A stretch of 64,000 bases of DNA from Halobellus rufus. Its GTDB lineage: Archaea; Halobacteriota; Halobacteria; Halobacteriales; Haloferacaceae. Location: the NCBI RefSeq assembly GCF_000739575.1, contig NZ_BBJO01000002.1, positions 1-64,000 on the forward strand, written 5' to 3'. Below the pieces are notes generated by a model, which had not been told where the DNA came from, did no database searches, and saw nothing but the letters and a program-made list of their open reading frames with translations. Shown here piece after piece: positions 12,385 through 23,232 of the stretch (positions are counted from its first letter, which is position 1; each line of letters opens with the position of its first letter). The position numbers and the translations under genes are program-made.

Positions 12385-15300
12385 ATGACGAACGATAGGA
12401 CAAGACGCGCGTTGGTCCTGCTGGCGACGATTTTTATGATCACGTCGCCGATGGCCGGCGTCGTCGGTGCGTCGGCTGCGACCGGCGCGCACGACGGCGA
12501 CTTGCGCGCGGCAGACGTCGACGACGGGGCGCTGAACGCGGCCCAAGTAGCCGACACGACCGCGGTCGGGGAGGTGATCGCGCGCGTAAACGCGGGAGGT
12601 GACTCCGTGGCGGTCGACAGCGGCCCCGACTGGACGGGCGAGTGGGAGCAGTACCACTCCGGGAGCACCTCGACGTACAGCACGGGCGATTCGATCTCTC
12701 TGGACGCCTCAGTTCCGACTGACACGCCCGCAAGCGTGTTCCAGTCCGAAGTGTACGGCGAGCAGGAGTGGACGTTCTCAGACGGAGTTCAGAGCGGTCA
12801 GACCTACGAGGTCCGCCTCTACTTCGCCGAGATCTACCAGACCACTGACGGCGATCGGCTCTTCGACGCCACCGTCGAGGGCGAGCAGGTGCTCGACGGC
12901 TACGACATCCACGCTGACGTCGGTCACGACGTCGGCGTGATGAAGTCCGCCACCGTCACGCCCGCCGACGGAGAGATCGATATCGGTCTCACCAACGTCG
13001 AGGACAACGCGAAGATCAGCGCGATCGAGATCGTCGAGTCCGAACCCCAGCCCGACACGCTCGGTGGACCGTCGGACGTCGACTTCGGAAGCGTGGTCGT
13101 CGGCGACGCTGAGAGCGAGACGGTCACGCTGACGAACCTCGGTGGCGACGGCGACGCCGACATCACGATCGACGACGTGTCCGTCTCGGGTGACGGCGCA
13201 TTCTCGGCTGGAGCGGCGTCGCAAACGACGCTCGCCCCAGGCGAATCCGCCGACATCCCACTCACGTTCTCCCCGGACGACGCGCAGTCGGCGTCGGGGG
13301 CCGTCGAGATCACCCACTCGGGGAGTAACTCCCCGCTGAGTATCGACCTCGCCGGCGAGGGAACGAGCACTGCGCAAGTAGGCTTCGGCAAGAGCAGCCT
13401 GCAAGGGTTCGATCAGAGCTCACTGACGGCGCTCGAGTTCGGGCCGGACGGTCGGCTCTACGTCGCCAAACAGAACGGGATGGTGTACGCGCTGAACGTC
13501 ACCCGCGAGGGCGAGAACGACTACAGCGTCGAATCGCAGGAATCCGTCGACCTCGTTCAGGACATCCCGAACCACGACGACTTCGGGAACCACGAGTCCG
13601 GTGAGACGGCCCGCCAGATCACCGGCCTGACCGTCGGCGGGACGGCCTCGGAACCGGTCGTGTACGTCTCGTCGAGCGATCCGACGATCGACGTCGGGGA
13701 GGACGACGACGACACGGACACCAACTCCGGTGCGATCTCCCGGTTGACGTTCGACTGGGAGAGCGACGACACGTTGAACGGCGTCGACCACGAGGTGATG
13801 GTCCTCGGGCTGCCGCGCTCGGAGGAGAACCACGCGACCAACGGCCTCGATCTGGCCGACGACGGCGAGACGCTGTACGTCGCTCAGGGCGGGCACACGA
13901 ACCAGGGCGCACCGAGCAACAACTTCGGTCACACGCCCGAATACGCCCTCTCCGCGGCCGTTCTCGAAATCGATTTGGCACAGATCGAGACGGACCACCA
14001 GCCGAAGAACCTGCAGGACTACGACGCTGACTATCCGAACCTGGACTTCTGGTACGCGATCCCGACGATCCAGAACCACGACGGGACCGAGGGTGACGAC
14101 CTGCCGTTCGGCGGCAACGACGGGATCAACCAGGCCAAGTGGATCGAGGACGGTCCCGTGCAGGTCTACTCGACCGGGTACCGCAATCCCTACGACCTCG
14201 TCCTCTCGGAGGACGATCAGCTGTACGTCATCGACAACGGTCCCAACGGCGGCTGGGGCGGCCAGCCCGTCAACGAGGGTCCGGACGGGATGTGTACGAA
14301 CGAGCCGAACGATCCCGGTGGCGGCTCCGGTGACCAACTCCACCTCGCGACCGAGGGGTCCTACGGCGGTCACCCCGCCCCGATCCGGGCGAATCCGACG
14401 GGCGCTGACATCTACGACGCCGACGGGAACGTCATCTTCGACATCAACGAGTCGAACAGTCCCGTCCCGGCTTCGCAGGTGAACCCGATCGAGTGCGACT
14501 ACCAGAGCCCCGACGAGGACAACTCGCTCGGAGACACCTTCGGCTGGACCGGCGGTATGGACGAGTACACCGCCTCGAACTTCAGGGGCGCGATGCAGGG
14601 CGACCTGCTCGTCGTCGTCGGAGCCAGTTCCGTCGAGCGCGTCCAACTCGACGCCAGCGGGACGAGCGTCACCGAGCAGGAGAGCAACTTCTTCAGCGAC
14701 ATCAGCGCACTGGGCATCGCCGCACAGGGCGACGAGGGTCCCTTCCCGGGAACCGTCTGGACCGCCCGCGGTGATCTCACCGTGTTCGAGCCGAACGACT
14801 ACGAAGGCACCGGCGACGGCCAGCAGTGCACCGGTGCCGACGACCCATCGCTCGACGAGGACGGTGACGGCTACGACAACGCCGACGAGATCGACGCGGG
14901 ATCGGACCCGTGCTCGGCCGCCTCGACGCCGCCCGACTTCGACGACGACGGCACGTCCAACGTGAACGATCCGGACGACGACAACGACGGACAGCCCGAC
15001 ACGAGCGATCCGTTCGCGGTCGATCCAGAGGACGGGACCACGACGACGCTCCCGATTCAGATGGACTTCTCTGAGACGGAGCTGTTCGGCGAGAACGGCC
15101 AGGGTTGGACCGGCCTGATGACGAACGGCCAGACCGATTACCAGGACCTGTACGACCCCGACCAGATGACGGTCGGCGGTGCGGCGCAGGTGCTTACCGT
15201 CGAAGACGTGCCCGCCGGTGACGCGACGAACGACGACCAGCAGTACGCGTTCCAGCGCGGGTTCGACGCGCCCGAGGAACCCTTCACGGTCTCGACGACG

Positions 15301-18300
15301 GTGAACGGTCTGCCCGAGAACCCCTCGGACTACCAGTCGCTGGGGATCTACATCGGCAACGGCGATCAGGACAACTACCTGAAGCTGGTCGCCGCCGCGA
15401 ACGGCGGCACCGGGGGCGTCCAGTTCGCCGGCGAGACCGATGGCTCCTTCGAGAGCGTTCAACAGCCCGACGACTCGGCTGTCGCGGGCTCCGACAGCGA
15501 CACCGACCTCGAAATGACGGTGTACCCGAGCAACGACACCGTCGAGGCGTACTACACGCCCGAGGACGGCGAGGAGACGTACGTCGGTTCGACGACGATC
15601 CCCGGGTCGTGGCTCGACAGTTCGGACGGCAACGGCACCGCGGTGGGCGTCATCTCGACGTCCTACCAAGCCGGGTCGACGTTCGACGCTACGTGGACGA
15701 ATCTCGACGTCGAGTACGTGACCCCGCCGGAGAACCAACCACCAGTGGCCGACGCGGGCGCTGACGTCACCGTCGACGCGGGACAACAGGTCACGCTCGA
15801 CGCCTCGGGATCGACCGACCCCGACGGCGACGACGACGCGCTCGGCTACACGTGGACGCAGACCGCCGGAACGCCCGACGGACTGCTGGACATGAGCGAC
15901 GGAGAGCAGGTGTCCTTCACCGCGCCCGACGTCGATTCGGAGACGACGTACACCTTCGAGGTGAGCGTCTCCGACGGCCAGGACAGCGACACCGACACGG
16001 TGAACGTGACGGTGCAGCCCACCGACGACTCCGGCGACGGGCCGACCGACGGCGAGGTCCTCTACCGCGTGAACGCCGGTGGCTCCGAGACCGCGGCCAG
16101 CGATGGTGGCCCGTCGTGGAGCGCGGACACCGATGGCAGCCCCTCGCCGTACGTCAACGCTGACGGAGACAACGGGCTCAACACCTACAGCACGGACGAC
16201 ACCGTCTCCCTCGATAGCTCGGTGCCCGCGGACACGCCAGCGTCCCTGTTCCAGACGGAGCGGTACGACGTGAACACGACGGGCTCGGCGGCGGACGACA
16301 CCGAGATGCAGTGGTCCTTCGACGTCCAACAGGGCGAGACCTACGAGGTCCGCCTCTACTTCGCCGAGATCTTCCTCGACGCCTCGAACGTGGAGTCGCA
16401 AGGGCCGCGGACCTTCGACGTGACTGTCGAAGGCGACACGGCGCTGGACGACTACAACCTCTACGACACGTACGGACACGACGTCGGAGCGATGGAGTCG
16501 TTCGAGGTGACGCCCGCTGACGACAGCCTCGACGTCGAGTTCCTCCACGGACAGGAGAACCCGAAGGTGTCGGCGATCGAGGTCGTCGCCGTCGACGGTG
16601 ACGAACCGCCCGCGGACGGCGATCTGACCGTCGCCGAGGCCGTGGCGATGGGCGGCGAGAACGACTCACAGATCGAAGACGCGGAGATCCAAGAGGCGAT
16701 CAACTGGTGGTCGACGGACGCCGAGGTTCCCAACACCGGCGGACAGACCGTCGGTGACGCCGAGATACAGAGCCTCATCAACCTCTGGGCGACCGACGCT
16801 GCGGTCGGTGAGGGTGACGACGGCGGCGACGAGGACGGGACGACCGGATCGGCGTTCGTCGAGGTCACGCCCGACTCGGGCGTCGAGGCGTCTACCTACG
16901 GGGGCGGCTCCTTCGAAGTCACGAACACTGGCGACGAGCAGGTCTCGTCGGTTACCTTCGACCTCTCGTCGTCGGCGATGCCCGACGTGGTGTTCGATCC
17001 CGAGGGGACCGCCGGCGACCAGGCCGCGAAGGGACTGAATATCGACTCGCAGTCGGGTGACGGCGTCGGCGTCGTCAGCACCGACGACGGGGACGTGTTC
17101 AGCCAGCCGCACAACGGCGTGAACGGGTCCGACGGCTACGACGTGATGACCGTCGAGTTCGACGACTTCGACCCCGGTGAGTCGGTGTCGTTCTCGGTCG
17201 ACAACGATCCGACGAGCATCAAGGACGCGAGCATCTCCTCCCAAGAGGCGGGTCCGATCTCCGGGCTCGAACTGGCCCGCTCGACGGTGAGCGTCGAGTA
17301 CGCCGACGGCGGCGTCCAAGAGACCCAGCTGTTCGGTGACGGCAGCGCTGGCGGCGCGCAGGCGACCCTCGACGAGTCGGTCGCGTCGGCACCGAGCGTC
17401 GACGTGCAGGACGTCGCCCTCGACGACGCCGCGCTCCGTGACCACCACAGCGCGGCCACCGTTAGCGAGGCAGACCAGACCGTGACCGTCACGGGCGACC
17501 CCGGGGCGACCGTCACGCTGCTGCACTTCGAGGGCGAACTCGAACTGAGCAACGTCCCCGAGTACGACGGCACGCCCGGGTACGACGTGGAGGCCTACGA
17601 GGCCAACAAGATCGAGCAGGTGAACTACGAGACGGTCACGCTCGACTCGAGCGGCGAGGCCGAAGTGCCCGTCACGCTGCTCAACTCGACGGACGTCGGC
17701 GGGTACAACTACCTCGTGGCCGCGCAGGGTGAGCCCGACGCGGACACGGGGCTCGCCTCGAACGTCGTGGTCCTGCACTACGACGAGAGCGCCGGCGACG
17801 GCGGTGAGCCCGATCAGCCGAGTGACGTCGCCTTCGCCGTGAACGCCGGTGGCGACGAGTACACGGCTTCTGACGGCACCGTCTATCAGGCCGACACCAA
17901 CTTCGACGGCGGCGACACCTACAGCACGACGCAGTCGATCGACGGCACGCAGGACGACGAACTCTACCAGACGGAGCGCTACGGCGGCGCTCCCGGTTCG
18001 GACCCGCTGAGTTACGACGTCCCGCTCGATGACGGCGAGTACGAGGTCACCCTCCACTTCGCCGAGATCTATCAGGGCGTCGCCGACAGCGATTCGCCCG
18101 ATTCGACCGGTCCGGAGGACGGCACGAACGAGAACGACCGCGTGTTCAACGTCAGCATCGAGGGCGAGCAGGTCCTCACCGACTACGACATCTTCGCCGA
18201 AGTTGGCCCGCTGACCGCGACGCAGGAGACGTTCACGACAGAGGTCACCGACGGCGAACTGAACGTCGATTTCGCGGCGACCTACGACAACGCGAAGGTC

Positions 18301-19161
18301 AGCGCGATCGAGATCACGGAAGTCGACGGCGACGGGAACGGTGACAGCGGCGACGAGAACGCCGCACCCACGATAGACGCGATCGACGACCAGACGGTCA
18401 CCGAAGGTGAGTCGGCGAACGTCTCGGTCACCGCCCAGGACCCCGACGGCGACTCGCTGGTGCTCGCGGTGAACGGTCCCGACTTCGTCGATCTCTCGAA
18501 CGGCGACGTAACCATCGCTCCCGAATCGGGCGATGCGGGCACCTACACCGTCGAAGTCACCGCCACTGACGGCAACGGCGGCACTGCGACGGAGTCGTTC
18601 CAGGTGACCGTCGAAGAAGCCGAGGAGCCCCAGCCCGCGCAGGTCCTCCACCGCGTGAACGCCGGTGAGGACACCACGGTCGACGCGACCGACGACGGCC
18701 CCGACTGGACGGGCGTCGCCGACACGAACTCGCCGTACCTCGCGTCTGTCGCAAGCACCAGCGCCGGCAACTTCTGCGGCGGCGACGACGTCTCTCCCGG
18801 CAGTGACGTCCCTTCGACCACGCCCGACGGGGTCTGGGACTGCGAGCGTTACGGGAACTCCACGTGGGAGTTCACCGTCGACGACGGAGCCGACGTCGAC
18901 GTTCGCCTCTACTTCGCCAACTCGTTCGACGGGGCATCTGAGCCCGGCGAGCGGCAGTTCAACGTCTCCGTCGAGGGCGATCAAGTGCTGACGCAGTACG
19001 ACCCCGTGGCCGACGTCGGTCACGCGACGGGAGCGATGAAAGAGTTCGCGGCGACCGACGACGGCGACGGCACGATCACGATCGACTTCGAGACGGGAAC
19101 GGCCGAGAATCCCGAGATCAGAGCCATCGAGATCATCGAATCGGAGGAGGGCTCCCAGTAG
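12385..19161 (+). CDS. Giant secreted malectin / sugar-dehydrogenase-like / dockerin-like multidomain protein
   Basis: A 2258-residue secreted protein with an N-terminal signal segment (RALVLLATIFMITSPMAGVV). Approximate domains: malectin-like 1 (62-216); choice-of-anchor D / hydin-like sandwich (226-330); a beta-propeller of the glucose/sorbosone dehydrogenase type (332-808); Ca-binding thrombospondin-3-like Asp repeats (818-882); a LamG/DUF1080-like jelly roll (889-1112); PKD (1115-1212); malectin-like 2 (1223-1402); a dockerin-like helix pair (1412-1472); unassigned beta domains (1489-1800); malectin-like 3 (1814-1979); a cadherin/Ig-like domain (1992-2077); malectin-like 4 (2086-2252). 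It ends in ESEEGSQ with no membrane anchor or sorting signal. Malectin folds bind carbohydrate and the propeller may oxidise sugars, so a role in polysaccharide capture or breakdown at the surface is inferred. Only two short Cys pairs are seen. Codon use looks native. Confidence 0.8.
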   Translation: MTNDRTRRALVLLATIFMITSPMAGVVGASAATGAHDGDLRAADVDDGALNAAQVADTTAVGEVIARVNAGGDSVAVDSGPDWTGEWEQYHSGSTSTYSTGDSISLDASVPTDTPASVFQSEVYGEQEWTFSDGVQSGQTYEVRLYFAEIYQTTDGDRLFDATVEGEQVLDGYDIHADVGHDVGVMKSATVTPADGEIDIGLTNVEDNAKISAIEIVESEPQPDTLGGPSDVDFGSVVVGDAESETVTLTNLGGDGDADITIDDVSVSGDGAFSAGAASQTTLAPGESADIPLTFSPDDAQSASGAVEITHSGSNSPLSIDLAGEGTSTAQVGFGKSSLQGFDQSSLTALEFGPDGRLYVAKQNGMVYALNVTREGENDYSVESQESVDLVQDIPNHDDFGNHESGETARQITGLTVGGTASEPVVYVSSSDPTIDVGEDDDDTDTNSGAISRLTFDWESDDTLNGVDHEVMVLGLPRSEENHATNGLDLADDGETLYVAQGGHTNQGAPSNNFGHTPEYALSAAVLEIDLAQIETDHQPKNLQDYDADYPNLDFWYAIPTIQNHDGTEGDDLPFGGNDGINQAKWIEDGPVQVYSTGYRNPYDLVLSEDDQLYVIDNGPNGGWGGQPVNEGPDGMCTNEPNDPGGGSGDQLHLATEGSYGGHPAPIRANPTGADIYDADGNVIFDINESNSPVPASQVNPIECDYQSPDEDNSLGDTFGWTGGMDEYTASNFRGAMQGDLLVVVGASSVERVQLDASGTSVTEQESNFFSDISALGIAAQGDEGPFPGTVWTARGDLTVFEPNDYEGTGDGQQCTGADDPSLDEDGDGYDNADEIDAGSDPCSAASTPPDFDDDGTSNVNDPDDDNDGQPDTSDPFAVDPEDGTTTTLPIQMDFSETELFGENGQGWTGLMTNGQTDYQDLYDPDQMTVGGAAQVLTVEDVPAGDATNDDQQYAFQRGFDAPEEPFTVSTTVNGLPENPSDYQSLGIYIGNGDQDNYLKLVAAANGGTGGVQFAGETDGSFESVQQPDDSAVAGSDSDTDLEMTVYPSNDTVEAYYTPEDGEETYVGSTTIPGSWLDSSDGNGTAVGVISTSYQAGSTFDATWTNLDVEYVTPPENQPPVADAGADVTVDAGQQVTLDASGSTDPDGDDDALGYTWTQTAGTPDGLLDMSDGEQVSFTAPDVDSETTYTFEVSVSDGQDSDTDTVNVTVQPTDDSGDGPTDGEVLYRVNAGGSETAASDGGPSWSADTDGSPSPYVNADGDNGLNTYSTDDTVSLDSSVPADTPASLFQTERYDVNTTGSAADDTEMQWSFDVQQGETYEVRLYFAEIFLDASNVESQGPRTFDVTVEGDTALDDYNLYDTYGHDVGAMESFEVTPADDSLDVEFLHGQENPKVSAIEVVAVDGDEPPADGDLTVAEAVAMGGENDSQIEDAEIQEAINWWSTDAEVPNTGGQTVGDAEIQSLINLWATDAAVGEGDDGGDEDGTTGSAFVEVTPDSGVEASTYGGGSFEVTNTGDEQVSSVTFDLSSSAMPDVVFDPEGTAGDQAAKGLNIDSQSGDGVGVVSTDDGDVFSQPHNGVNGSDGYDVMTVEFDDFDPGESVSFSVDNDPTSIKDASISSQEAGPISGLELARSTVSVEYADGGVQETQLFGDGSAGGAQATLDESVASAPSVDVQDVALDDAALRDHHSAATVSEADQTVTVTGDPGATVTLLHFEGELELSNVPEYDGTPGYDVEAYEANKIEQVNYETVTLDSSGEAEVPVTLLNSTDVGGYNYLVAAQGEPDADTGLASNVVVLHYDESAGDGGEPDQPSDVAFAVNAGGDEYTASDGTVYQADTNFDGGDTYSTTQSIDGTQDDELYQTERYGGAPGSDPLSYDVPLDDGEYEVTLHFAEIYQGVADSDSPDSTGPEDGTNENDRVFNVSIEGEQVLTDYDIFAEVGPLTATQETFTTEVTDGELNVDFAATYDNAKVSAIEITEVDGDGNGDSGDENAAPTIDAIDDQTVTEGESANVSVTAQDPDGDSLVLAVNGPDFVDLSNGDVTIAPESGDAGTYTVEVTATDGNGGTATESFQVTVEEAEEPQPAQVLHRVNAGEDTTVDATDDGPDWTGVADTNSPYLASVASTSAGNFCGGDDVSPGSDVPSTTPDGVWDCERYGNSTWEFTVDDGADVDVRLYFANSFDGASEPGERQFNVSVEGDQVLTQYDPVADVGHATGAMKEFAATDDGDGTITIDFETGTAENPEIRAIEIIESEEGSQ
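12801..12834 (+). repeat. DNA-level repeat, malectin copy 1
   Basis: A stretch of about 34 bases starting gacctacgaggtccgcctct is repeated identically at 16338-16371 inside malectin-like domain 2 of the same gene. It encodes TYEVRLYFAEI, the core strand of the malectin fold. Identity at the third codon positions points to recent duplication or gene conversion between these two domains. Confidence 0.75.
16338..16371 (+). repeat. DNA-level repeat, malectin copy 2
   Basis: Second copy of the stretch at 12801-12834. The equivalent parts of malectin-like domains 3 and 4 encode related residues but are not identical in DNA, so copies 1 and 2 are the closest pair. Confidence 0.75.
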
Positions 19162-19427
19162 GGGCGATCGACGATGATCGACGGTCCGCCGTTCGCCGCC
19201 GCCTGCTCGCGGCCGACTCCCGAAGTCGGCACCGAGAGCGACGGCGAGGCGAACGCGCGGCCAGTCGACGAGACGACTCCTGCGAACACCGCTCCGCGAC
19301 GGCGGCCGATCGCGTTCGGGGGTAACCACCGACGCCGACGCGCGCCGGCCACGTCGCCGTGGGGCGTACGAATCGAGCGACGACCGATCCAGCGACAACA
19401 GCGAATCACACGACACACCAGCAACCG

Positions 19428-21398
19428 ATGAACGACACAGTACCCAGATATCTCAGACAGACCATCGCCGCGCTCGTGGCCGTCTCGATCGTCCTCTCGG
19501 TCTTCGGACCGGTGGGGACGGTGGCGGCGGACCCGAGCGTGTCAGTCCAGCAGTCCGCAGACAGCACGACAGTCTCACCCGGTGACACGGTCACCTTCAC
19601 GACCGAGTTAGCCGTTTCCGAACTCAACGCCCCGCAGTTGCAGTCGACGATCCCCGACGGCTGGGAGATCGAATCGCAGTCGGCCGACGGCCCGGTGGCG
19701 TACAACGACGGCACGTGGACGTGGCTCGCCGGCGACGACGACGGCGTCGACGTGAGTTACACCGTCGAGTACACCGTGAGCGTCCCCGACGACGCCGACC
19801 CCGGAGACTACGCGGTCGGCGTCGAGGGGTCGGCTCTCGCCCCCGGCGGCGAGCGAACGGCCGAGACGGACTCGACGACGATCACCGTCGAAGCGCCCGA
19901 CCAGAACCAGGCCCCCTCGGCCTCGTTCGATGTGAGTCCCGCCTCGCCAGACGTCGGTGAGGAAGTCAGCCTCGACGCCTCCGGCTCCAGCGACGCAGAC
20001 GGCTCGATCGTGAGCTACGAGTGGGACTTCGACGGCGACGGAACGGTCGATGCGACCGGATCCTCGCCCACGGCCGCGCACACGTACGACTCGGCCGACG
20101 ACTACACCGTGGAACTGACAGTTATCGACGACGACGGCGCGACCGACACGGCCACCGAGACGATAACGGTCAGCCAGGCGCCGCAGCCCGATCCGGCGGA
20201 GTTCCAGCTGTCGGCACTCGACGTGGAGTCGCCGGTCGAACAGGGGACCGACGCCGCGGTGACGGCGACGGTCGAGAACGTCGGCGGCGAGTCCGGCACG
20301 CAGACTGTCGCGCTCGACGTCGACGGCAGCGAGGTCGACAGTCAGTCCGTCACGATCGACGGCGACTCGAGCCAGCAGGTGAGCTTCGACGTCGACACCA
20401 GCGGCCTCTCGGTGGGCGATCACGACGTGACGCTCTCGACCGACGACGACAGCGCGAGCGCGACGCTCACCGTGAACGAAGCGCCGCCGGACAACCAGCC
20501 CCCGTCCGCTGCGTTCGACGTCTCCCCCGCAGATCCGGAGACGGACGAGACGGTGACCTTCGACGCGGCGGCGTCGAGCGACGCGGACGGCTCGATCGCC
20601 TCCTACGAGTGGGACTTCGGCGACGGCGAGACGGCGACCGGTGAGACGGCCACGCACTCGTACGAAACTGCCGGCGACTACACGGTCGAACTGACCGTCA
20701 CCGACGACGACGGCGCGACCGACACGGCCACCGAGACGGTGACGGTCGCTGCGCCGTCGGAGCCCGGTCCCGAGCAGTCGACGGCGGTGTCGCTGTCGCC
20801 CGACGAAGACCTCGTCGCCGTGAACGGCTCGACCACGTTCGACGTGGTCGTCGAGAACGCCGACGGCGGCGTCGGCGCGTACAGCCTCGGCGTCTCCGTC
20901 GACGACGCGTCGGCCGCGGCGATCACCGACCTCTCTGTCGACGACGGCGCGCTCTCGGACGTCGAAGTCGCCGGGGACGGGAGTTCGGCGAGCGCCGACG
21001 TGGCACTGCTCGACACCGACGACACCGGTCCCGTGACCGTCGCGACAGTGACTGTCGACGGCGAAGCCGACGGCACGACCGATCTCGCGCTCGACGTGTC
21101 CAGCCTCGGCACCGAATCCGGCGACGCGTACGAGGTCACGGAGACCAACGGCGCGACGCTGACCGTCTCCGAGCTCGTCGTCGGCGCGTCCGACCAGCCC
21201 GCCCAGGACCTCGACGACGACGGCGTCTACGAGGACGTCAACGGCGACGGCACCGTCGACGAGCTGGACGTCCAACTCCTGTTCGCCGAGCGGAACGGCG
21301 ACGTCGTGCAGGGCTCGCCCGACGCGTTCGACTTCAACGGCGACGGCGAGTTCGACATCCTCGACGTGCAGAGCCTCTACTACGAGGAGGTCGCCTGA
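19428..21398 (+). CDS. Secreted PKD/CARDB protein with cohesin-like domain and C-terminal dockerin
   Basis: A 656-residue secreted protein. Signal peptide (TIAALVAVSIVLSVFGPVGTV), an N-terminal beta domain (37-157), PKD 1 (162-249), CARDB (257-351), PKD 2 (358-441), a cohesin-like domain (450-579) with TTFDVVVENADGGVGAY, and a C-terminal dockerin (593-654). The dockerin has two Ca-binding loops of the DxNxDGxxxxxD form: DVNGDGTVDELD (603-614) and DFNGDGEFDILD (635-646), each followed by a helix (VQLLF, VQSLYYEEVA). Dockerins bind cohesins, so one chain carries both partners and could act as an adaptor. The start at 19428 is fixed by the signal peptide. The next gene, a membrane-anchored cohesin, begins 6 bases after the stop. 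Confidence 0.83.
   Translation: MNDTVPRYLRQTIAALVAVSIVLSVFGPVGTVAADPSVSVQQSADSTTVSPGDTVTFTTELAVSELNAPQLQSTIPDGWEIESQSADGPVAYNDGTWTWLAGDDDGVDVSYTVEYTVSVPDDADPGDYAVGVEGSALAPGGERTAETDSTTITVEAPDQNQAPSASFDVSPASPDVGEEVSLDASGSSDADGSIVSYEWDFDGDGTVDATGSSPTAAHTYDSADDYTVELTVIDDDGATDTATETITVSQAPQPDPAEFQLSALDVESPVEQGTDAAVTATVENVGGESGTQTVALDVDGSEVDSQSVTIDGDSSQQVSFDVDTSGLSVGDHDVTLSTDDDSASATLTVNEAPPDNQPPSAAFDVSPADPETDETVTFDAAASSDADGSIASYEWDFGDGETATGETATHSYETAGDYTVELTVTDDDGATDTATETVTVAAPSEPGPEQSTAVSLSPDEDLVAVNGSTTFDVVVENADGGVGAYSLGVSVDDASAAAITDLSVDDGALSDVEVAGDGSSASADVALLDTDDTGPVTVATVTVDGEADGTTDLALDVSSLGTESGDAYEVTETNGATLTVSELVVGASDQPAQDLDDDGVYEDVNGDGTVDELDVQLLFAERNGDVVQGSPDAFDFNGDGEFDILDVQSLYYEEVA
20125..20163 (+). 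repeat. PKD repeat segment, copy 1
   Basis: The end of PKD domain 1 shares a run of about 36 identical bases (encoding DDDGATDTATET) with 20702-20738 at the end of PKD domain 2. This indicates recent duplication or conversion between the two PKD units. Confidence 0.7.
20702..20738 (+). repeat. PKD repeat segment, copy 2
   Basis: Partner of the segment at 20125-20163. The two PKD domains diverge outside this run, including a longer, calcium-loop-like insert (DFDGDGTVDATG) in copy 1 only. Confidence 0.7.
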
Positions 21399-21404
21399 TC
21401 GACG

Positions 21405-22229
21405 ATGGCCGCGACCACGACCCGGTCTCGCAGTCGCTGTGCGGCGTGCGCACTCGCACTCGTCGTGCTCCTCGCCGCGGCGGTCGGCGTCGCGGCCGCC
21501 GCCGACACGACTGACCTCGGCGTCGCCCCGCACACAGACAACGTAGCGCCCGGAGACACGACGGAAGTCGACGTCGTCGTCGAGAGCGCCGACGGCGGCG
21601 TCGGCGCGATCAACGCGTCTGTCACGCTGTCGGACCCCGAGGTCGCCACCGTCGCCGACGTGACGATCCACGGCGATCCCCGGCTCGAAAACGTGACCGA
21701 CCACGACGACGGCGTCGAGATAAGCGCGGCTCTCGCGGACACCGAGGACACCGGGCGCGTGACGATCCTCACCCTCGTCCTCCGCGGCGAGGCTTCCGGT
21801 CAGACTGCAATCGACGTGAACGCGCGTGCGCTCGGCGACGAAGGCGGAAACGCCTACACCGTCGCCGGAATCGAGCGTCCCACGGTGACGGTCGCCGACG
21901 GGTCCGACGGCAGCGGGTCGGACGGATCGAGTCGCTCGTCCGACGGGTCGGATGCGGGCGCGTCGTCGTCCGGAGAGTCCGACAGTGCGGAGTCGCTGTC
22001 CGGTGAACCACCCGGTGATGACGGTGAGAACGACGATACAGACGCGCCGACCGCCGACGAGTCGGGAGAGACGAAGACCGTCGACACCGGGGAGCCCACA
22101 CCCGGCAACGTCGTTGGCGATGGCGGGATCGAAACCTCGCTCGGGGGTGGACCGTTGGCCCAATACGGTCCTGTCGGCGCACTCGGCGTAGTCGCGATCG
22201 GTGCGATCGTGATCTACCGCTTCCGTTGA
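21405..22229 (+). CDS. Membrane-anchored cohesin-like surface protein
   Basis: A 274-residue surface protein. The signal peptide (about 1-33, ACALALVVLLAAAVGVAAAA) is followed by one cohesin-like beta-sandwich (36-165) with the motif TEVDVVVESADGGVGAINAS, closely matching the cohesin motif of the preceding gene. A linker rich in Ser, Asp, Gly and Glu (about 166-245) spans the cell-wall space, and the chain ends in a hydrophobic helix (GPVGALGVVAIGAIVIY) with RFR, which would hold it in the membrane with the cohesin outside. It lacks a clear PGF sorting motif, although GPLAQYGPVG precedes the helix. The gene starts 6 bases after the dockerin/cohesin gene, so the two are surely cotranscribed. 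Likely role: cell-surface anchor for dockerin proteins. Confidence 0.82.
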   Translation: MAATTTRSRSRCAACALALVVLLAAAVGVAAAADTTDLGVAPHTDNVAPGDTTEVDVVVESADGGVGAINASVTLSDPEVATVADVTIHGDPRLENVTDHDDGVEISAALADTEDTGRVTILTLVLRGEASGQTAIDVNARALGDEGGNAYTVAGIERPTVTVADGSDGSGSDGSSRSSDGSDAGASSSGESDSAESLSGEPPGDDGENDDTDAPTADESGETKTVDTGEPTPGNVVGDGGIETSLGGGPLAQYGPVGALGVVAIGAIVIYRFR

Positions 22230-22308: not shown

Positions 22309-23232
22309 ATGACTTCCGACGACATCCGATCCGGATTAGGGGTGTCGTCGGCACGCGGGATCACGATCATCTACGCCGTGGTGAGCGCCGCTTGGATCCT
22401 GTTCTCCGATCGATTGCTGGCGGCAATGGTCGCCGACCCCGCCCTCTACACCCAGTTGCAAACCGGAAAGGGCTGGGCGTTCGTCGGGGTCACCTCGGGG
22501 CTGATCTACGTCCTCATCTCCCGGCGCGAGGCCGAATTGGCCGAACAGAACGACCAGTTGGAGCGGGCGCTCCAGCAGATCTCGATCCTGCACCGGATCC
22601 TCCGGCACAACCTGCGGAACTCCTGTAACGTCGTGAAGGGATACGTCGAGGTCCTGAAACAGCGCGGAGACGGCGAGAACGAGGAAGTCGCAACGATCAT
22701 CGAGACGCACGTCGACGAACTGGTGCGGTTGAGCGAGAAATCGTACCTGCTCCGCGATATCGTTCTCGACGACAGCGACTCGGTCCAGTCCGTCGATCTC
22801 CCGTCGCTCATCGACGCCCGGGTCCGCGCGTTCGAGTCCGAACACCCGGATTCGGACGTCGACTTCGAGGTGGATCTCCCGGAGGAGTGCCTCGTTCGCG
22901 CCCACGCCCGCTTTGCCGACGCTGTCGACGAACTGTTCGAGAACGCGATCAAACACAACGACGCCGAGCGACCGACGATCCGCGTCTCGATGGGTTCGGA
23001 GACCGACGAGACGGTCGACCTCGACATCGCGGACAACGGCCCGGGGATCCCCGACATCGAACGGGCGGTCGTCGAGGAGGGAGAGGAGAAGCCGCTGTTT
23101 CACTCCCAGGGCATCGGCCTCTGGGTCGCGCGGGCGGCGGTCGTCGAGTCCGGCGGCGAGATCCGGTTCGTCGACAACGAGCCTCGCGGCTCCGTCGCCC
23201 GGATCACGCTTCCGAGGGCCTCGGCGAACTGA
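22309..23232 (+). CDS. Membrane sensor histidine kinase
   Basis: A 307-residue kinase. The N terminus has two membrane helices with the text SAAWILFSDRLLAAMV and LQTGKGWAFVGVTSGLIYVL, a module also found at the start of many bacterial kinases and cyclic-di-GMP proteins. A short coiled coil (EAELAEQNDQLERALQQIS) leads to the phospho-acceptor helix (ILHRILRHNLRNSCNVV, His of RHNLRN) and the ATPase domain with N box ELFENAIKHN, G1 DIADNGPGIP and G2 QGIGLWVARA. It has no PAS or receiver domain, and no response regulator lies beside it, as is common in haloarchaea. The signal is unknown. It lies just downstream of the surface cohesin genes but has its own promoter-like element. Confidence 0.88.
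   Translation: MTSDDIRSGLGVSSARGITIIYAVVSAAWILFSDRLLAAMVADPALYTQLQTGKGWAFVGVTSGLIYVLISRREAELAEQNDQLERALQQISILHRILRHNLRNSCNVVKGYVEVLKQRGDGENEEVATIIETHVDELVRLSEKSYLLRDIVLDDSDSVQSVDLPSLIDARVRAFESEHPDSDVDFEVDLPEECLVRAHARFADAVDELFENAIKHNDAERPTIRVSMGSETDETVDLDIADNGPGIPDIERAVVEEGEEKPLFHSQGIGLWVARAAVVESGGEIRFVDNEPRGSVARITLPRASAN

Follow-up and report, generated by a model that had tools for sequence, protein, structure and literature searches.

The window analysed here, a stretch of 64,000 nucleotides, comes from a 3.85 Mb assembly of Halobellus (in the GTDB sense). A first-pass annotation of this DNA had described three neighbouring open reading frames, at 12385–19161 (2258 aa), 19359–21398 (679 aa from a GTG) and 21405–22229 (274 aa), and all three were found there intact, the second separated from the third by 6 bp. 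We refer to their products as the giant, the adaptor and the anchor. The start of the adaptor is probably an internal ATG, because the alignment of its relatives begins only at residue 24. A tRNA-Ser(CGA) gene lies directly downstream of the anchor gene (22530–22615, minus strand). PADLOC gave no match, and searches of the single proteins against PDB sequences returned only PKD and collagenase matches and one weak dockerin match. The features of the locus are as follows.

12385–19161, + strand: giant, a secreted putative client of 2258 aa with a signal peptide, four malectin domains and no anchor
13357–14814, + strand: probable GSDH-like beta-propeller region of the giant (PF07995, 22.6 bits, E = 7.5e-5, cut-off 25)
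16603–16824, + strand: HEL module, residues 1407–1480 of the giant, a duplicated helix-loop unit and the proposed plug
17830–18309, + strand: malectin domain of the giant with the best score, residues 1816–1975 (PF11721)
19428–21398, + strand: adaptor, about 656 aa from the ATG (the frame opens at GTG 19359), in the order signal peptide, NT, PKD, CARDB, PKD, cohesin (COH), dockerin (DOC)
19524–19892, + strand: NT domain, a NEW3/DUF4625-like beta-sandwich and the proposed HEL socket (33-copy profile, genome search E = 7e-39)
20772–21176, + strand: adaptor cohesin (shared local profile; adaptor-cohesin clade support 99/92), directly adjoining the dockerin
21177–21392, + strand: adaptor dockerin, type I (PF00404, 35.5 bits), with two complete Ca-binding loops
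21405–22229, + strand: anchor, 274 aa, with a signal peptide, a cohesin, an acidic Ser-rich linker and a C-terminal transmembrane helix
21501–21902, + strand: anchor cohesin (AlphaFold2 pLDDT 92–98; Foldseek against PDB cohesins E = 3e-9)
22149–22226, + strand: transmembrane segment and basic tail at the C-terminus of the anchor, sequence GPLAQYGPVGALGVVAIGAIVIYRFR

As had been described, the giant has a secretion signal and four malectin-like domains (PF11721, E = 1e-85). It also includes choice-of-anchor-D (ASH)/Ig and PKD/Big domains, and is probably carbohydrate-binding. The sugar-dehydrogenase-like propeller claimed for this protein was recovered as a GSDH match, but a weak one that stays below the PF07995 cut-off, and comparing the region with the PDB by sequence gave no useful match. 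Homologues of the giant were found at loci L034, L035, L036, L040, L044, L050, L103 and L153–L155 (L and G numbers are our handles for loci and genomes).

Near the N-terminus of the adaptor lies NT, which has a conserved W/P motif of its own (LPDGW...W.W). The copy in the window scores 22.5 bits against DUF4625, under the cut-off, and a relative at L046 reaches 25.2 bits against PF10633 (cut-off 24.4). We know of no docking role for the NEW3/NPCBM-associated (PF10633) and DUF4625 families, which the NT beta-sandwich matches weakly or just above cut-off. The two-loop dockerin reported at the other end of the protein exceeds the PF00404 cut-off of 22.9 bits, and both of its loops have the complete form D-x-N-x-D-G-x-x-D-x-x-D, a helix coming after each. 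It is preceded by a conserved D-x-D-x-D-G-x-x-E-D extension, and its profile matches the solved dockerins 1ohz, 2ccl and 2yik. No other dockerin was detected in this genome, where cohesins number two, one on the adaptor and one on the anchor.

Pfam does not reveal these cohesins: the anchor has no Pfam domain above cut-off, and PF00963 gave no usable match to either module in the window and its own genome. A local profile built from the two modules found 44 copies in the window and in the loci of relatives. Its best PDB sequence matches are two Ruminococcus cohesins (E = 0.047 and 0.087), not significant alone. The anchor module was modelled by AlphaFold2 at the high confidence listed above, and the model has the nine-stranded jelly-roll beta-sandwich of cohesins. 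Foldseek returned 111 PDB matches to it at E ≤ 0.001, and the best 50 of these are nearly all cohesins; the non-cellulosomal cohesin of Archaeoglobus fulgidus (2xdh) superposes with a TM score of 0.73. In other haloarchaea (G154, G122, G202, G187, G183, G215 and G131), PF00963 matches coincide in position with the local cohesin family, with scores under the cut-off in the cases compared. The cohesin-like domains proposed earlier on the adaptor and the anchor are thus both matched by the local profile. We assign them as divergent cohesins by fold rather than by PF00963 score, the anchor module from its predicted structure and the adaptor module through the profile that the two share. The anchor (P0003) has the make-up of a surface-anchoring cohesin subunit, as known from cellulosomes. 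When the adaptor dockerin and the anchor cohesin were modelled as one AlphaFold2 chain, the pTM was 0.64 and the second half of the dockerin was poor; this chain reads through the in-frame TGA stop between adaptor and anchor as a modelling device, with no cellular readthrough implied.

A search with the dockerin alignment yielded 19 related loci, and 195 haloarchaeal genomes were then covered by genome searches, for which all counts are among the matches listed. The cohesin family occurs in 73 of these genomes and dockerin in 87. The two occur together in 68, where 32.6 were expected (p = 1e-28). The adaptor adjoins the anchor in Halobellus G002, G005, G007, G009, G011, G014 and G015, as well as in G035, G051, G153 and G164 from other genera or families. 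Whether the three genes stay adjacent in other haloarchaea had been set as a check, and the trio does recur in Halobellus and two further families. It is whole in G002, G005, G011, G014 and G015 and, outside the family, in G051, G153 and G164, and expanded in G007, G009 and G035; the linkage spans at least three families. The Halobellus copies share the same downstream transporter genes and hence mark one syntenic site across several species. A common layout has a protein with cohesin-dockerin at its end and, after it, a small cohesin bearing a transmembrane tail. In proteins carrying both modules, the cohesin lies within 3 residues of the dockerin in 22 of 32, and 27 of the 195 genomes hold one dockerin and at least two cohesins (among the matches listed). 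Further clients with dockerins are PQQ propellers, subtilases, amidases and GMC oxidoreductases. Several haloarchaeal families have pairs of a cohesin-dockerin protein (about 890 aa) and an anchor (about 265 aa). At L047 (6355–9884), a PhoX phosphatase exported by Tat has cohesin-dockerin at its end and a small membrane-anchored cohesin as its neighbour, and L105 and L106 have a similar layout.

The helix pair that the first-pass annotation called dockerin-like (residues 1412–1472 of the giant) is present and conserved, but it is not detectable as a dockerin, since profiles score at control level. The AlphaFold2 model of the surrounding HEL module (pLDDT 83.7) has helices at 10–16, 26–38 and 52–64 in a duplicated loop-helix unit. 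A dockerin assignment by profile was rejected, as hhalign comparisons with dockerins fell inside the range of shuffled controls. PF00404 found no match in HEL, and the core HEL sequences are without the Ca-ligand set. Foldseek gave no significant match for HEL; the top one is a type II dockerin (E = 0.9), and many of the others are EF-hand proteins. Weaker HEL relatives retain one EF-type loop, in places of canonical EF/dockerin form (for example DSDDDGYIGDFE), so that a distant EF-hand origin is possible.

HEL was found in 13 of the 195 genomes, or in 17 with a broader profile (among the matches listed). Most HEL genes have a neighbour that encodes NT. Among the matches listed, NT lies within 4 kb of HEL at 16 of 18 HEL places, for each of which the chance is about 0.4%; a cohesin lies within 8 kb at 6 of the 18. 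In G040 and G042, HEL-NT pairs are present and the genome has no cohesin match. At L227 the putative HEL client is a subtilase, and a membrane anchor carries NT. Copy numbers at 14 giant loci agree: HEL correlates with NT (rho 0.94, p = 1e-4) and not with cohesin (−0.48), whereas dockerin correlates with cohesin (0.72); for G007 and G009 the counts take in upstream giants known only as profile matches, and the correlations are not independent because some of the compared loci are close relatives. Domains like NT are also found without an accompanying HEL, for instance 13 times in G038.

Further HEL proteins were noted in these genomes. L037 (3660–6200) and L039 (3278–5821) each encode a second putative HEL client of about 846 aa, with a phosphoesterase-like N-terminus, LamG and NPCBM domains and HEL near the C-terminus. 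Proteins of about 330 aa that combine a CARDB-type domain with HEL, and have no obvious signal peptide, were seen at L089, L093, L094, L095 and L100, mostly beside membrane-anchored NT proteins.

A natural module swap is found in G011, another Halobellus. This genome has no HEL, and its giant ends in a dockerin instead. Its adaptor is without NT, an extra cohesin occupying the N-terminal place, and its C-terminal cohesin still belongs to the common adaptor clade. The extra N-terminal cohesins form a clade of their own (99/92) with members at L036, L046 and L155. These three loci, and no others, have clients whose dockerins share one clade (82/91); the deep cohesin tree has many open forks, and only its well supported clades are used here. 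As plug and adaptor N-terminus change in G011 and the C-terminal cohesin stays constant, the N-terminus is, judging by these sequences, probably the part of the adaptor that faces the client. L155 (G164) is an imperfect case: its giant has a dockerin, its adaptor still has one NT, and there is no HEL nearby.

From the domain content, the modelled anchor cohesin, the dockerin loops, gene order, co-occurrence and the module swap, which are read from sequence or model, we propose a three-part extracellular assembly held together by two different plug-and-socket joints; for the whole, including binding, export and chain growth, we consider the case somewhat better than balanced. The small anchor, seated in the membrane, would present one cohesin, and this cohesin would receive the C-terminal dockerin of the adaptor. 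We regard this contact as very probable. It was also part of the first-pass reading, in which a cohesin-dockerin-based surface assembly has the anchor holding the adaptor, and the predicted cohesin fold and the gene order in relatives support it. The unanchored giant would plug its HEL helix pair into the adaptor, for which the likeliest socket is the N-terminal NT beta-sandwich and not the cohesin; gene linkage and one clean swap indicate that HEL probably binds NT, though genes of the same operon can co-occur without their products binding each other. The adaptor would then act as a converter of docking specificity, from HEL-NT to dockerin-cohesin, and would display the giant on the cell. 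Its own cohesin would be spare. With one dockerin detected in the genome and two cohesins, the only partner left for it is the dockerin of a further adaptor, and such contacts would build head-to-tail chains from one anchor, although we lean slightly against chains being formed.

In the first-pass annotation the giant was joined differently, HEL being a degenerate dockerin in the adaptor cohesin and the adaptor dockerin sitting in the anchor cohesin. The duplicated helix-loop unit of HEL, the canonical EF/dockerin-type loop of its weaker relatives and the type II dockerin at the head of its Foldseek matches all agree with this chain, which would also give the spare cohesin a use. It is nevertheless unlikely, for the profile comparison of HEL with dockerins is inside the shuffled control, HEL stands beside NT in genomes without cohesin matches, its copy number does not track that of cohesins, and the C-terminal cohesin of the G011 adaptor is unaltered despite the loss of HEL. 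The claim that the adaptor cohesin holds the helix pair therefore fails to find support, as HEL tracks NT, and not cohesin, across genomes and in copy number.

Alternatively, the adaptor might be a stand-alone polymer, each dockerin entering the next cohesin and one end being anchored, with the giant a mere neighbour gene whose product is otherwise attached or released. The single dockerin and two cohesins seen here and the similar surplus in 27 genomes would suit such a polymer, as would the close fusion of cohesin to dockerin in most proteins with both. We hold it to be distinctly improbable in view of the conservation of giant, adaptor and anchor together over at least three families and the joint change of the giant's plug and the adaptor N-terminus in G011. 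Even less credit is given to a reading without mutual binding, in which the cohesin-like and dockerin-like modules serve as ordinary domains of the cell surface that bind substrate or calcium. It follows descriptions of haloarchaeal dockerins as participants in substrate binding (PMC10963439, PMC13260240), and is opposed by the cohesin fold, the strong co-occurrence, the adjacency, the fixed topology of the anchor and the way in which client dockerins and adaptor cohesins change class together.

The proposed assembly with two joints resembles several known systems in part. It shares with the non-cellulosomal pair of Archaeoglobus fulgidus (Bayer 1999 and Peer 2009, as cited in passages of PMC9012536) the archaeal cohesin fold, a type I-like dockerin and the lack of a cellulase context. 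In contrast to Archaeoglobus, Halobellus has a fixed gene trio, a membrane-anchored cohesin, an adaptor with fused cohesin and dockerin and an additional HEL-NT pair, in an arrangement that occurs in many haloarchaea. Bacterial adaptor and anchoring scaffoldins (ScaB of Acetivibrio cellulolyticus, OlpA of Clostridium thermocellum) likewise pair an anchor carrying cohesin with an adaptor carrying dockerin and cohesin and an unanchored client. Unlike these, the adaptor described here has a single cohesin, no CBM or GH domains and no cohesin array, the anchor is transmembrane instead of SLH, and the client would be joined by a non-dockerin module. Neither a multi-cohesin scaffoldin nor a dockerin-bearing glycoside hydrolase, as found in cellulosomes, was detected in this genome. 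The earlier label of a cellulosome-like system without cellulase is therefore apt for the absence of cellulase domains and the principle of surface anchoring, but not for a multi-cohesin scaffoldin, which the locus does not have.

Dockerin and cohesin proteins of ANME archaea (PMC9012536, in part) are also extracellular, with dockerins, up to five cohesins and a proposed surface attachment. Their clients differ, being substrate-binding and S-layer proteins, and the passages concerned report no HEL-NT pair and do not treat haloarchaeal members. Following Peer 2009, the same passages state that multi-cohesin scaffoldins were missing from archaea with these domains, and go on to report scaffoldin-like proteins in ANME. 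Our search of the open-access literature found no paper describing haloarchaeal cohesins, although Peer 2009 may list some, and neither cohesin nor dockerin is mentioned in a study comparing cellulolytic haloarchaea (PMC10267330).

Larger cohesin and dockerin sets were seen at other haloarchaeal loci. L159 and L160 (G199:C23:1–32000) form a cellulosome-like cluster with a protein, truncated where the contig ends, that has at least five cohesins, and with a single-cohesin membrane anchor; six GH5, one GH18 and one GH81 enzymes there each end in a dockerin. We know of no description of an archaeal cellulosome with dockerin-bearing glycosidases. L171 (G094:C1:143000–162000) encodes a 541-aa scaffoldin with three cohesins and a dockerin, flanked by dockerin proteins with malectin, GSDH, LamG and TIM-barrel domains. 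G038 has at least 30 dockerins and 12 cohesin modules, and its GH5 cellulase at L169 (G038:C1:2300000–2319000) has a near-cut-off dockerin. In G035, contig C3 breaks off within a cohesin gene at either end (L045, L046), so that this 596 kb replicon is probably circular with a surface-assembly locus spanning the join; the protein across the join is read in pieces only.

Because no cohesin had been seen in haloarchaea, their dockerins have been interpreted as parts that bind substrate. The divergent cohesin family described here, largely missed by Pfam, supplies the missing partner in 68 of the 87 dockerin-bearing genomes (among the matches listed) and points to a way of holding extracellular proteins on archaeal cells. 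HEL-NT would be a second, cohesin-independent docking pair of haloarchaea, with malectin giants, subtilases and a phosphoesterase-like protein as clients, coupled straight to membrane-anchored NT or, via a two-faced adaptor whose copies may chain, to cohesin-dockerin; we see this general picture as evenly poised between right and wrong. The HEL-NT joint is apparently undescribed. Since a single dockerin is paired with two cohesins, three recombinant modules are enough to put chain growth to the test, and the second docking pair, if true, would be a new orthogonal connector working at high salt.
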